NCBI GenBank assembly: GCA_003989075.1
Contig: RXIX01000015.1
Coordinates: forward strand, 1-43,102
Direction: 5' to 3'
DNA from: Candidatus Competibacteraceae bacterium
GTDB taxonomy: Bacteria; Pseudomonadota; Gammaproteobacteria; Competibacterales; Competibacteraceae
Length of the DNA: 43,102 bases
The position numbers and the translations under genes are program-made. Shown here in pieces: positions 1,002-6,422 of this stretch (position 1 is the stretch's first letter; every line of letters begins with the position of its first letter). Under the pieces are notes generated by a model that saw nothing but the letters and a program-made list of their open reading frames with translations, had not been told where the DNA came from and did not search any database.

Positions 1002-4000
1002 ATGCTGGATAAAAAAGAGCATATTCTGCAACGGGTTAATGCCTTGGAAAATCGCGGTGTGACCCAGCAGCGTATAAGAGAAGTGGTTGCCAATATCCTG
1101 CTGCATAAGGTGGATATCATCTGCTGGAACGAAGCGAGTAAAGAGCGAATCGCCTTGCATGCTTTTCTGCTGGCTGGGACCCGGTCATTTTTGCAGGAAT
1201 GCTTGGACAAGGGCTCAGACTCGGATGGGCGGAATATCATTGAGCGCCATATTAATGAAATCGATCAGCATTTCAGCGCGAGACAATGGCCCAGCGATAT
1301 CCGTGAAGACGACCCTGTATTGCTGAAACAGTTCTGGAATCAAAATAAACAGAATGGCAGCAAAACAGCTGTAAAAAATCTCCCGGCCTATGTCAGTGAA
1401 TTGATACCGGTTACGGATTTCAGGAATGAGCGGAACCGTATTCTTCGTATCCTGCTCAAGCTTCCAGTTTCAGTATCCCATAAAGGGGATTTTGAGCCCG
1501 TATTGACGCATGATTTAGTGAATAATATTCAGGCAAGTACGGACCGGTTTGTCAGGGCGATCATCGGAGATGAATTGCAGGAGCGTTATCCAAATGCATA
1601 TGGTTTTATTTCCGTAATACATGGGCATCGCGATGCTGAAAAACTTAATAAACTGCTCGATTTGAAGAAAATGAGCAGTCAGGGATTTTTAGTCTCAATA
1701 TTGCAAACAAGGAGCGCAGTACGCGAGTTGATTGAAAATCTCAATATTGCTCTGGATGTTCTGGGAAAACTGGAATTCAATCAGATTACACAGTTATGGA
1801 ATAGCCTGGATAAGATGCAGTGGATAGCTGTTTTTAATCCGCATCGCCATGGAGTCAATTTGGGCGGATATCAACTTGCTTGTCCTGTTGAGTACAGCGA
1901 ATCACAGATGCCGCCTTGGATGGAAGGAAATACGCAGGGTGAATTAAAAAATGAGGGTTATAGTGATGCGGGGAGCTATATCCTGTTCTCGGACAGGATC
2001 GATGAGGCTTTGCCTGATGATAAAGTGAAGGAAATACTGCGTGTACAGTATGCCAATCTTCAGGAGAACTTGATTAAACAGAACTATGATGCGCTACACT
2101 TGATTATGTCTCATTCAGACAAAATGACCAAAATCACGGCGCAGACAATTATTGTGTTGGTTAACAGGATGATGGAAACCTATCAGGATATTGCTGATTC
2201 AACAGATTCAGTCCTGATTGCAAGGCAATACCATGCATTTTTGCAGGAATTGGAAGAATCCTGGAAAGATTTGTCTCCCGGTAATGTGTTGCCCGCATCT
2301 TTAAGGAATAAAATCATAAAAATCCAGGAATGCTCTCCGGTTGATATTGATAGCCTACATTCATGGATACGTTTTTTGCATGATGCCGGAAATAAGTCAC
2401 TGGAGAAAAGAATGGTGTCGGCCCGTTCTGATCGCTCGATCACCATTGGTCGTATTGGAATCAGCGAAACAAAAGAAATACAGCTGGCAAAACTGGATAA
2501 TAACCCAATTATAGTTAATGGCTTAATTCGGCATCGTGCAATTTCAATCATTATTAGTGCTGTTCAGCGAATGCCATTTTCTATGCCTGGTACGTTCGTG
2601 GTCATCAATAACCATATTAGCTACAGCGTAAAGCTTGGCGAGCATCGTGTGGAATTTTCAGCCAATATTGAATGTCCAGACAGTGAGGGGTTTGTTCAGT
2701 TACAAATTTACCAGGGTGGTGTGGAGATAGAACAACAGTTGCGCGGGGCTTTTATAAAACAGGTTTTGCAGGAAAGAGGAATAATAGTCGCTTGTGAACA
2801 GGAAGGTCTCGTGGATTTGCTGGTTAGAGGCATTCTGGACAAGGATCATGGTGCCCGGAATGTAAGGCAGATCGAACAGGCTGTTTTACTTGTGTTGCGC
2901 TTGATAGGGTCTCTTCGTGACCTGGATTATGCTATGGCATATATCCTTTTAAAGGAAAAAACACCGCATCCCGACAAAAAAATAAACAGCAAGGAACTAC
3001 ATGGATTCGCGGCTTCTTTCGCGCGCATGTTTCTGGTTGAGGGAATGATCCCGTTTTCATATAGAGGCGAAGGAATGTCTTTTTCTGCATACTGTGAATA
3101 TGGTGGGCCTGAAGCACTTCGGGGATTCAGAGCTTATAATTCCGATACGCGGCGTATGATTCGCTATCGCCTTTTTTTTACAATTAATGCCTGCCTGCAG
3201 TCAGTTAATTTGCCGACCATAAAGCCTGGAACGGGTGGAGTAGGACAGCAGGTTATTGATGAATATTTTAATCAGCCCATTATAAATGCTCTCGGGCGCG
3301 GCGAATTGATAATAAATTCACGGGGATTTGTTGAAAAAAATCCTGTTTATCAGCCGGTTAAAGACATTATTAGTACGGTTGTAATGCGTGAAAATGAGGC
3401 GCTGCGCATGGCAGCTCTTCTCAGGATGGCTGCTCTTAATCTGGATTTCCATACGATTGGAAGCATCGATCAATTGATGCTGGTGAGATCTCAGCAGGAA
3501 ATAAAACCAAATACATGGCTGGTAGTTTATGGTTTGGTAGATGATGAAAACCGTGCGGTATTATATGCTTTCTGCCAACATCTAAAAACGCAGGAAGAAC
3601 AGGAATGGCTTTCCGTTACCAAGCTCAGGAAATTGCTGCGTATTAGTGGCTATCCGGCGATTGGCAAAATCCAGATTCCAGGGTTTCAAAAAGCTTTTTC
3701 TCATCGCTTATTAACCGGAAGGCCACATGAGAACAGCATGATTCTCGGCGTATCTATCCGGGGTCTTTTGGCTTCTGTTGGCGATGGATCTGTCCGGATT
3801 GGCAGGATTACCCTTGATCGCAACTATTGCTTTAACCCGTTGACCCGCGATGGGCGTATTCTATTGGTTCCGTTCACAACGCCTGAGGATATCGAAGCAA
3901 TTCGGAATGCTGAAGCGGTTCTGGTTACTAGTGGTGGACTATTAAGCCATGCTGGTGTTACAACGCGCGAATTTTCCATTCCAGCTTTGATTATTCCACA

Positions 4001-6422
4001 TGCTGAGTGGATATACTCGGAAACCGGAGCCATGGTTCGTCTTGAGGATAGACATCCGAGTCAGATGAGAAAGACAGCAGAGGGATTCTGGGTTAGTGAC
4101 TCAATGATTTATGAGTCAGTTGATGTACATGAGGGGGATCTTGTTCTTGTTTGGGCGTCGCAGGGCATAATATCGATCATGCCTATGAACGGAAAGGCTC
4201 TTGAACAGGTGCATGGTTTAATACAGGATATTTTATCTGAAAAAAAGACTCCGATTGATCTCGAAAAATGGCTGACCACTGACCTGTTAAGGCTTGATAT
4301 ACAGGATAAGAATGATCGAGGCTTATCCGATATTCTTGGCTTGATACTGGCCGAAGCGCTATGGGATAAAAGAATTCGTGCTGCCTTGCGTAAGGAATTG
4401 ATTGACATCGTACAGCGTATCCACGCTGGAACATGTGTGGATGGCACCCTAATTAGGGTTTCACCTCAAGTCACTGCATACATAAGAACATTTTTACGAA
4501 AAATAGAGGAGAATGATTTTATAGAATTTGAAAGTATTTTGTCAGAGGTTGAGCATAATATATCCAGGATAAAGGTGTTATGGAGAGCACTGAATGTTGT
4601 TCAGCTTGTTGAGCAGCTCTTGGTTCAGGTCAGAGCTTTGGCAAATAGCCTAAATGTGTTCGACGAGCGATTAAAGGCTTTTGAAAACAGGGTTGATAGG
4701 TTACGTCGTCATCCACGTATAGCCTTGCTCAGAGCATCAATACTTCATGAAGCCGAGATTCTCTCAGGAAAGATATTGGGCGAAGCTGATTTACCACTCA
4801 TACAAAAAACCTTGCGCCGTCTCGGCCATGCGAAGAACAGTGGTGCACTGAAAAAGGTTTTGCTGGTATGCACCGCTAATGTGGATCGTAGCCCGATGGC
4901 TGAATTTCTGTTAAGGAAGATGTTCCGTGATGAAAACGTGTGGGGTATGGAAGTCATTTCACGGGGTGTGGCGGCCTCTGAAAATTGCCCTATGTCTGCA
5001 ACGGGTCAGGCTCTGCTGATGCTGCAAGATCAGATAAATGCTAATACGCATCGCAGCAGAAAACTTGCAGAAACTGATATCAAAGGGGCTGATATCATTC
5101 TGGCAATGGAGTGCTTTCATGTGCAGTTCCTGAAGGAAAAATATCCTCATGCTGCAGACAGGATTTTTCTGCTCAGTGAATATGCAAATATGCGCGAACT
5201 TGGTGATATCAAGGATCCTGCAGGCCAGCCGGAAGATGCCTATTACAGGATGAAGCGTGAATTGCAGATGTCCTTGATTGGTGCTTTAAAGCATATGAGA
5301 GATAATGGCCTGTTGGCCAAGGCGATGATTGCGCATTTGCGGATTAAGGCTGATGAACTGGCAGGAGCAAAAAGGAAACGAGTTGCTGAATCCAGGGTTA
5401 TTGCCATATCCATGGAGAATATTGGTGCTGATTCTGTTGAACTGGTAGGTGGAAAGGGTGCTAATCTTGGGGAAATCGCGCAACTCGTTAAACATCTTGG
5501 CGCTCAGGTTCCAACAGCATTCATGGTGACAACCTTTGCTTTCCAGAAGTTCCTTGAGGAGAACAGTATACTGGATGAATTTACGCAGTTAACGGCAGCG
5601 ATCGATAATGCTCTTGTGACGGAAAATTTTTCGGATGAGGTTCATCAGAATCAGATTTTGGTATTATCCGATAAAATCCGGAAATTGATCAGCCATGGTC
5701 AACTGGATGTTGCCGCAGGTGTCGGGCGTGCAATTATGGAAGCGCTTGATTCTCATGGTTTTAGGGATGCGCTTTTAAGTGTCAGGTCTTCAGGTCTCCA
5801 GGAGGATACCGAGGAGGCGACATTTGCGGGAGCGGCAGAGACTTATCTATATGTGAATCCGGCTGAATTGCTGGAATGGATTAAGAAAGTCTGGATGTCA
5901 TTTTGGCTTATCAGGGGAATTCTATACCGCAAAAGCAGACTGGTTCAGCAGGGACCAGTTAAGCCGGCGATTATCGTGCAGAAGATGTTTGATTCGCAGG
6001 TTTCTGGGGTCATGTTTACAACGGATCCGGTCAGCGGCAGGGATGTACTTGTCATCGAGGCTGGCTATGGACTTGGAGAAGGGGTTGTTTCGGGATTGGT
6101 TGATGTTGATCGCTATTATGTGAATAAATTTGATGGTTCATTGATCAATCTTCATATCGGTAACAAGGCATTCAAGGTTACACGGCATCCCTCTGGAACA
6201 GGAACATCCATAGAAGCCGTTGATAGTCATCTGCGCAATATCCCCTGCTTGAGCAAGGAAAATATCAGGATTCAAACGAGGATAGCAATGGCGCTGGAAC
6301 AACACTATGCCCTTTCCCAGGATATTGAATTTGGTATTGCGGATGGCAAGATCAGTATTTTACAGACCCGACCGATTGCAATGCGTGTATCGTATTCCAA
6401 CCCTCTAACGGGGTCACGCTGA
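1002..6422 (+). CDS. Giant PEP-synthase-like phosphohistidine / LMW tyrosine phosphatase / ATP-grasp fusion
   Basis: Start: ATG at 1002 with AGGAG at 988-992 is preferred over the in-frame TTG at 939, giving 1806 residues. Residues 1 to about 920 match nothing I recognise. About 930-1030 is a PEP-utilising swivelling domain with SGGLLSHAGVTTREF; His983 is the expected phosphocarrier. About 1040-1280 looks helical. Residues 1283-1430 form a low-molecular-weight protein tyrosine phosphatase with the CX5R loop CTANVDRS (Cys1290, Arg1296) and the general-acid DP at Asp1405. About 1475-1800 is a PEP synthase/PPDK-type ATP-grasp domain with GGKGANLGE (Lys1485), SVRSSG (Arg1595), DIEFGI (Glu1776) and QTRPI (Arg1790). 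The PEP/pyruvate TIM-barrel domain is absent. In PEP synthases and rifampicin phosphotransferases the ATP-grasp domain precedes the His domain; here the order is reversed. The gene is clearly AT-richer than its neighbours, suggesting transfer. Substrate unknown. Confidence 0.85.
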   Translation: MLDKKEHILQRVNALENRGVTQQRIREVVANILLHKVDIICWNEASKERIALHAFLLAGTRSFLQECLDKGSDSDGRNIIERHINEIDQHFSARQWPSDIREDDPVLLKQFWNQNKQNGSKTAVKNLPAYVSELIPVTDFRNERNRILRILLKLPVSVSHKGDFEPVLTHDLVNNIQASTDRFVRAIIGDELQERYPNAYGFISVIHGHRDAEKLNKLLDLKKMSSQGFLVSILQTRSAVRELIENLNIALDVLGKLEFNQITQLWNSLDKMQWIAVFNPHRHGVNLGGYQLACPVEYSESQMPPWMEGNTQGELKNEGYSDAGSYILFSDRIDEALPDDKVKEILRVQYANLQENLIKQNYDALHLIMSHSDKMTKITAQTIIVLVNRMMETYQDIADSTDSVLIARQYHAFLQELEESWKDLSPGNVLPASLRNKIIKIQECSPVDIDSLHSWIRFLHDAGNKSLEKRMVSARSDRSITIGRIGISETKEIQLAKLDNNPIIVNGLIRHRAISIIISAVQRMPFSMPGTFVVINNHISYSVKLGEHRVEFSANIECPDSEGFVQLQIYQGGVEIEQQLRGAFIKQVLQERGIIVACEQEGLVDLLVRGILDKDHGARNVRQIEQAVLLVLRLIGSLRDLDYAMAYILLKEKTPHPDKKINSKELHGFAASFARMFLVEGMIPFSYRGEGMSFSAYCEYGGPEALRGFRAYNSDTRRMIRYRLFFTINACLQSVNLPTIKPGTGGVGQQVIDEYFNQPIINALGRGELIINSRGFVEKNPVYQPVKDIISTVVMRENEALRMAALLRMAALNLDFHTIGSIDQLMLVRSQQEIKPNTWLVVYGLVDDENRAVLYAFCQHLKTQEEQEWLSVTKLRKLLRISGYPAIGKIQIPGFQKAFSHRLLTGRPHENSMILGVSIRGLLASVGDGSVRIGRITLDRNYCFNPLTRDGRILLVPFTTPEDIEAIRNAEAVLVTSGGLLSHAGVTTREFSIPALIIPHAEWIYSETGAMVRLEDRHPSQMRKTAEGFWVSDSMIYESVDVHEGDLVLVWASQGIISIMPMNGKALEQVHGLIQDILSEKKTPIDLEKWLTTDLLRLDIQDKNDRGLSDILGLILAEALWDKRIRAALRKELIDIVQRIHAGTCVDGTLIRVSPQVTAYIRTFLRKIEENDFIEFESILSEVEHNISRIKVLWRALNVVQLVEQLLVQVRALANSLNVFDERLKAFENRVDRLRRHPRIALLRASILHEAEILSGKILGEADLPLIQKTLRRLGHAKNSGALKKVLLVCTANVDRSPMAEFLLRKMFRDENVWGMEVISRGVAASENCPMSATGQALLMLQDQINANTHRSRKLAETDIKGADIILAMECFHVQFLKEKYPHAADRIFLLSEYANMRELGDIKDPAGQPEDAYYRMKRELQMSLIGALKHMRDNGLLAKAMIAHLRIKADELAGAKRKRVAESRVIAISMENIGADSVELVGGKGANLGEIAQLVKHLGAQVPTAFMVTTFAFQKFLEENSILDEFTQLTAAIDNALVTENFSDEVHQNQILVLSDKIRKLISHGQLDVAAGVGRAIMEALDSHGFRDALLSVRSSGLQEDTEEATFAGAAETYLYVNPAELLEWIKKVWMSFWLIRGILYRKSRLVQQGPVKPAIIVQKMFDSQVSGVMFTTDPVSGRDVLVIEAGYGLGEGVVSGLVDVDRYYVNKFDGSLINLHIGNKAFKVTRHPSGTGTSIEAVDSHLRNIPCLSKENIRIQTRIAMALEQHYALSQDIEFGIADGKISILQTRPIAMRVSYSNPLTGSR

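Follow-up and report, generated by a model that had tools for sequence, protein, structure and literature searches.

What does a protein do that joins the phosphotransfer domains of a PEP synthase, in reversed order, to a phosphatase and a long N-terminal region without assignment? The question was raised by the earlier note on a contig of a Candidatus Competibacteraceae bacterium (the window, meaning the whole stretch of 43,102 nucleotides that was analysed). The gene is one intact open reading frame encoding 1806 amino acids with no internal stop (Table 1). A GGAG lies upstream of the ATG at 1002, and the start codons of four relatives are no more than three residues away. An artefact or chance open reading frame is ruled out by five orthologues and low dN/dS, and a known defence gene was rejected on finding no PADLOC match. 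Judged from its sequence, we consider the product to be, quite probably, a one-chain dikinase with a glucan-water-dikinase-like domain order, whose N-terminal half would hold the acceptor and whose built-in phosphatase would reverse or edit the product.

Table 1 Features of the fusion gene, with positions in the window
Feature	Position	Strand	Evidence
Whole gene, 1806-residue fusion protein (P0001)	1002..6422	+	Single open frame; GGAG before ATG; four full-length relatives
N-terminal half without assignment, residues 1-912	1002..3737	+	No significant database match; conservation; alignment A2
Phosphohistidine swivel domain, residues ~913-1065 (C-terminal boundary estimated)	3738..4196	+	Pfam PEP-utilizers 950-997 (E 1.5e-9); PEP synthase/PPDK alignments from 917
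Helix-rich linker, residues ~1066-1284 (helices from low-confidence models)	4197..4853	+	No significant Pfam/PDB match
LMW phosphatase domain, residues 1285-1430 (Cys1290, Arg1296, Asp1405)	4854..5291	+	Pfam LMWPc 1286-1422 (E 5e-19); PDB alignments YwlE, 4egs
ATP-grasp domain (PPDK_N), residues 1470-1795	5409..6386	+	Pfam PPDK_N 1480-1794 (E 4e-72); PDB alignments PEP synthase, rifampin phosphotransferase

Catalytic domains and their residues

From the N to the C terminus, the protein consists of about 912 residues without assignment, the swivel domain carrying His983, a helical linker, the LMW phosphatase and the PPDK_N ATP-grasp domain. PDB alignments with PEP synthase and PPDK place the start of the swivel domain at about residue 917 and equate His983 with the catalytic histidine. 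This residue sits in SGGLLSHAGVTTRE, within the GG..SH motif expected of the PPDK/PEP synthase/RPH superfamily. In the ATP-grasp domain, the superfamily set of Lys, Arg, Glu and Gln-x-Arg is present (Lys1485, Arg1595, Thr1614, Glu1776, Gln1788, Arg1790), and the best PDB alignments are with PEP synthase and rifampin phosphotransferase. K1485, R1595, T1614 and E1776 align with Lys22, Arg117, Thr136 and Glu297 of the latter enzyme, of which the first three are required for resistance while Glu297 is replaceable (PMC4844700). The phosphotransfer hallmarks listed in the earlier note (Lys1485, Arg1595, Glu1776, Arg1790 and His983) are thus all present by Pfam and PDB alignment, with exact numbering. 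By its ATP-grasp and swivel features, the predicted protein is a member of the PPDK/PEP synthase/rifampin phosphotransferase dikinase superfamily.

The phosphatase between the His and ATP-grasp domains likewise looks intact, as had been claimed. C1290, R1296 and D1405 match the P-loop (C(X)5R) and the general-acid Asp of the DP loop in PDB alignments. The P-loop, CTANVDRS (residues 1290-1296, window 4869-4889), contains an Asp that is invariant in all five copies, at a position where the aligned solved LMW phosphatases carry Cys (Ser in one); to judge by the loop, this Asp could change phosphatase activity. The C(X)5RS loop and DP motif are shared with YwlE, Wzb and PtpA, but here the phosphatase is embedded in a large chain, and the YwlE P-loop Thr position is occupied by Val1294 in 5/5 fusion proteins.

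The earlier note had raised the possibility that homologues would have degenerate catalytic residues. This is not the case: K1485, R1595, T1614, E1776, H983, C1290, R1296 and D1405 are invariant in the five proteins. Since all known catalytic residues are conserved, the fusion protein probably phosphorylates some target. Its putative dikinase chemistry draws on knowledge of the family and on these residues.

The N-terminal half and linker

The N-terminal region of about 900 residues that had been called unknown proved indeed to be unmatched, and its extent can be refined to about 912 residues. Residues 1-945 gave no significant Pfam match in the five family members examined, and weak matches to bDLD2, LTD and DnaJ were judged to be chance. 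Searches of Pfam, NCBIfam, PHROGs and the PDB found no relative of the N-terminus, nor did those of plasmids, phages, viral contigs and proteobacterial genomes beyond the family. In agreement with the earlier claim that the PEP/pyruvate domain is missing, Pfam found no such domain, and neither residues 1-945 nor 1005-1284 matched PEP synthase/PPDK profiles significantly in profile-profile comparison; the N-terminus is hence no recognisable PEP-utilising domain of ordinary function. Profile comparison of residues 1-945 with the acceptor domain of two RPH-like proteins from the same family showed no similarity, and Pfam found no carbohydrate-binding module in the N-terminus of the five members. 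AlphaFold models built from five sequences had pLDDT values of 39 and 37, low even over the known domains. Residues 535-650 (LGEHRVEFSANIE..GFV.LQ.YQGG..) may resemble a segment of Desulfobacterota PEP-synthase-like proteins; a probe for such a segment had no match in plasmids, Pseudomonadota or viral contigs, and there was no family model.

Conservation differs along the chain. Mean pairwise identity is 82.6% in the His-domain core, 75.5% in the ATP-grasp domain, 69.8% in residues 440-660 and 66.1% in residues 660-945, and is lowest in residues 1-440 and the linker (52-54%; linker 53.6%). Residues 440-660 thus come close to the ATP-grasp domain in conservation, which is what an active site or a binding domain would be expected to show, and we infer that residues 440-660 and 660-945 are the strongest acceptor-domain candidates.

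Distribution and genomic setting of the gene

A search for proteins of the same architecture, as the earlier note had suggested, returned four full-length relatives with all catalytic residues kept, all in other Competibacteraceae and 60-61% identical to the window protein (about 40% of positions differ). Full-length copies are thus present in 5/39 genomes of the family, the window's included, with pairwise identities of 60-81% among the five proteins. For the closest pair, dN/dS was 0.07-0.16 in all segments, the phosphatase and N-terminus included (dS 0.6-1.0), a sign of selection along the chain. A profile of the N-terminal half had no match in 398 phylum and 369 class genomes outside the family (sets partly overlapping). 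Similarly, peptide patterns run over 84,980 species genomes, a method that reveals close relatives only, found none outside the family. Phyla beyond Pseudomonadota were covered through plasmids, phages, viral contigs and these pattern scans. Within the range of the searches made, the fusion gene is confined to Competibacteraceae. A remnant of residues 5-81 was seen in a sixth genome (G336; L036 127-357, minus strand), at a contig end and terminating in a stop.

The window genome (G000, rated 100% complete) has no other PPDK_N gene, hence no separate PEP synthase or PPDK was detected in it. It is nevertheless unlikely that the fusion protein replaces these enzymes, because the four other carriers hold additional, separate PPDK_N genes and no PEP domain was found in the protein.

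The gene is sporadic and was probably acquired horizontally. Its G+C content in the window is 44.5%, in a surrounding region of about 61%, and across the five copies it is 40-50% in regions of 53-60% (regions that include the gene itself). Gene neighbours vary: N-ATPase genes lie upstream in two genera, and dehydrogenase-complex, dihydroorotase-like, kinase and glycosyltransferase genes were also seen. As no neighbour gene is conserved across the copies, the context yields no substrate. In genome G316, the interval between the N-ATPase and ABC-exporter genes holds the fusion gene and a cation-efflux gene; in G313 it holds a membrane-protein-like open reading frame instead. In G335, the fusion gene directly follows a dihydroorotase-like gene (Pfam Amidohydro_1; read as pyrC from its sequence), and beyond it lies a decayed copy, about 100 bases long, of that gene's 3' end. 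Within this decayed copy lies one half of a 16-base exact direct repeat (L035 7709 and 13244) that flanks the fusion gene, which is the sole content of the 5.5 kb repeated unit. The arrangement resembles the outcome of integration into the end of a gene, with that end rebuilt. No integrase was seen, and such a repeat around the window's copy was looked for and not found. A phage or plasmid gene was rejected as an origin, the N-terminus having no relative in those sets. One genome encodes, near the fusion gene, an alpha/beta-hydrolase-like protein that bears a bacterial death-like domain (bDLD3) at its C terminus (L034 15407-16477); this domain type is linked to conflict systems. Because the gene is patchy, wastewater glycogen-accumulating bacteria that carry it can be compared with those that lack it.

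Known dikinases and the possible substrate

The order described as reversed in the earlier note does differ from that of PEP synthase, PPDK and rifampin phosphotransferase; it is not unique, however. In plant glucan water dikinase (GWD) and phosphoglucan water dikinase (PWD), an N-terminal substrate region is followed by the His domain and a C-terminal ATP-grasp domain; the fusion protein has this order too and would work like them in outline. The fusion protein differs in its PEP-synthase-type His motif (by inspection), in having no detected carbohydrate-binding module and in the phosphatase between the His and ATP-grasp domains. PEP synthase and PPDK are the closest sequences for its ATP-grasp and His domains, but they have a different order and a C-terminal PEP/pyruvate domain that is not recognisable here. 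Like the fusion protein, rifampin phosphotransferase has ATP-grasp and swivel domains but no PEP domain, and it joins them to an unrelated acceptor domain, as the fusion protein is presumed to do; unlike in the fusion protein, the order is ATP-grasp, acceptor, His and there is no phosphatase. The central acceptor domain of that enzyme is not recognisable in the fusion protein, and the NCBIfam rifampin phosphotransferase model matches no more than the ATP-grasp domain, scoring 209 bits where the cut-off is 999 bits. In the two-component dikinases PpsAB, CreHI and HpeHI, one chain bears the acceptor and swivel domains and the other bears ATP-grasp (PMC12167813). They resemble the fusion protein, with its putative acceptor, in having acceptor and His domain as one unit and ATP-grasp as another, and differ in their two chains, their small phenolic substrates and their lack of a phosphatase. 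No precedent for an LMW phosphatase fused to a dikinase was found in the papers searched. What is new is the phosphatase within the chain, together with the orphan N-terminal half, and not the domain order.

For our preferred reading, the C-terminal ATP-grasp domain would bind Mg-ATP, and the swivel domain would dock so that His983 receives the beta phosphate. The swivel would then deliver the phosphate to an acceptor bound in the N-terminal half, with the conserved segment 440-912 as its most likely site. The LMW phosphatase, on the same tether, would dephosphorylate the product, or else a partner protein, and so set the net state, or proofread. The gene would move alone, as an accessory trait. 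Both the acceptor position and the phosphatase role are inferred. The same swivel mechanism serves unrelated acceptor domains in rifampin phosphotransferase (PMC4844700) and, likewise, in HpeHI and PpsAB (PMC12167813). Dikinases have repeatedly gained new acceptor domains (for rifampin, phenols and glucans), so a strongly conserved orphan region of about 900 residues on an intact-looking dikinase/phosphatase offers a tangible lead towards a new substrate. With a phosphatase on the same chain, the protein would form a single-polypeptide on/off system that is easily tested in vitro. More tentatively, the protein could be a single-chain, self-reversing dikinase with an undescribed acceptor domain (~440-912), encoded by a mobile gene and acting on a substrate class new to dikinases.

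The putative substrate may be a small molecule, a protein or a glucan, and the rival explanations are mostly sub-cases of this dikinase-plus-phosphatase scheme that differ in substrate. LMW phosphatases usually act on phosphoproteins, which favours a protein-modifying switch: phospho-His983 would phosphorylate a partner protein or its own chain, the phosphatase would reverse this, and the large N-terminus could bind protein. Precedent is found in VadK, a PPDK-derived kinase without a PEP domain that acts on enzymes of another pathway (PMC13400623). No conserved partner gene adjoins any copy, however, and we regard the switch as possible but doubtful. Its arginine-phosphatase version is unlikely because V1294 replaces the YwlE Thr, the residue that recognises phosphoarginine. 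Similarly doubtful is a dikinase modifying a small molecule or antibiotic, in which the phosphatase would be regulatory or would clear the modification from self targets. The ATP-grasp alignments with PEP synthase and rifampin phosphotransferase are consistent with it, as are the traits of a mobile gene (low GC, patchiness, a site with alternative content and the repeat of the pyrC 3' end); the N-terminus is nevertheless unlike the acceptor domain of the two RPH-like proteins from the same family.

Competibacteraceae are known glycogen accumulators, and with the domain order of GWD and PWD this would suit a glycogen dikinase joined to a phosphoglucan phosphatase, whose N-terminal half binds glycogen, whose His983 phosphorylates glucosyl residues and whose phosphatase removes the phosphate. 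In plants, GWD/PWD and SEX4/LSF2 are separate enzymes, and the dikinase and phosphatase cooperate in starch turnover (PMC12892837). This role is improbable, given the lack of a detected carbohydrate-binding module in residues 1-945, the non-GWD type of His motif and a presence in just 5/39 family genomes, a smaller share than something central to glycogen storage should have. Very improbable is a relic or structural protein with inactive catalytic domains, kept for another reason; the unusual P-loop Asp and the persisting remnant of residues 5-81 would fit it, but the catalytic residues are invariant in 5/5 copies and dN/dS is well under 1.

The other precedent for the domain order is an uncharacterised gammaproteobacterial family of about 980 residues (L044 1538-4492, L048-L062), found in 18/185 class genomes. 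Its members share with the fusion protein an N-terminus without assignment followed by the His domain and then ATP-grasp (in L044, PEP-utilizers at 520-563 and PPDK_N at 635-957). They differ in having no phosphatase and in an N-terminus that is unrelated by profile comparison. Most members carry the His motif LSHVQLLARN, and their starts are mostly signal-peptide-like; an export signal on a phosphotransfer enzyme would be odd.
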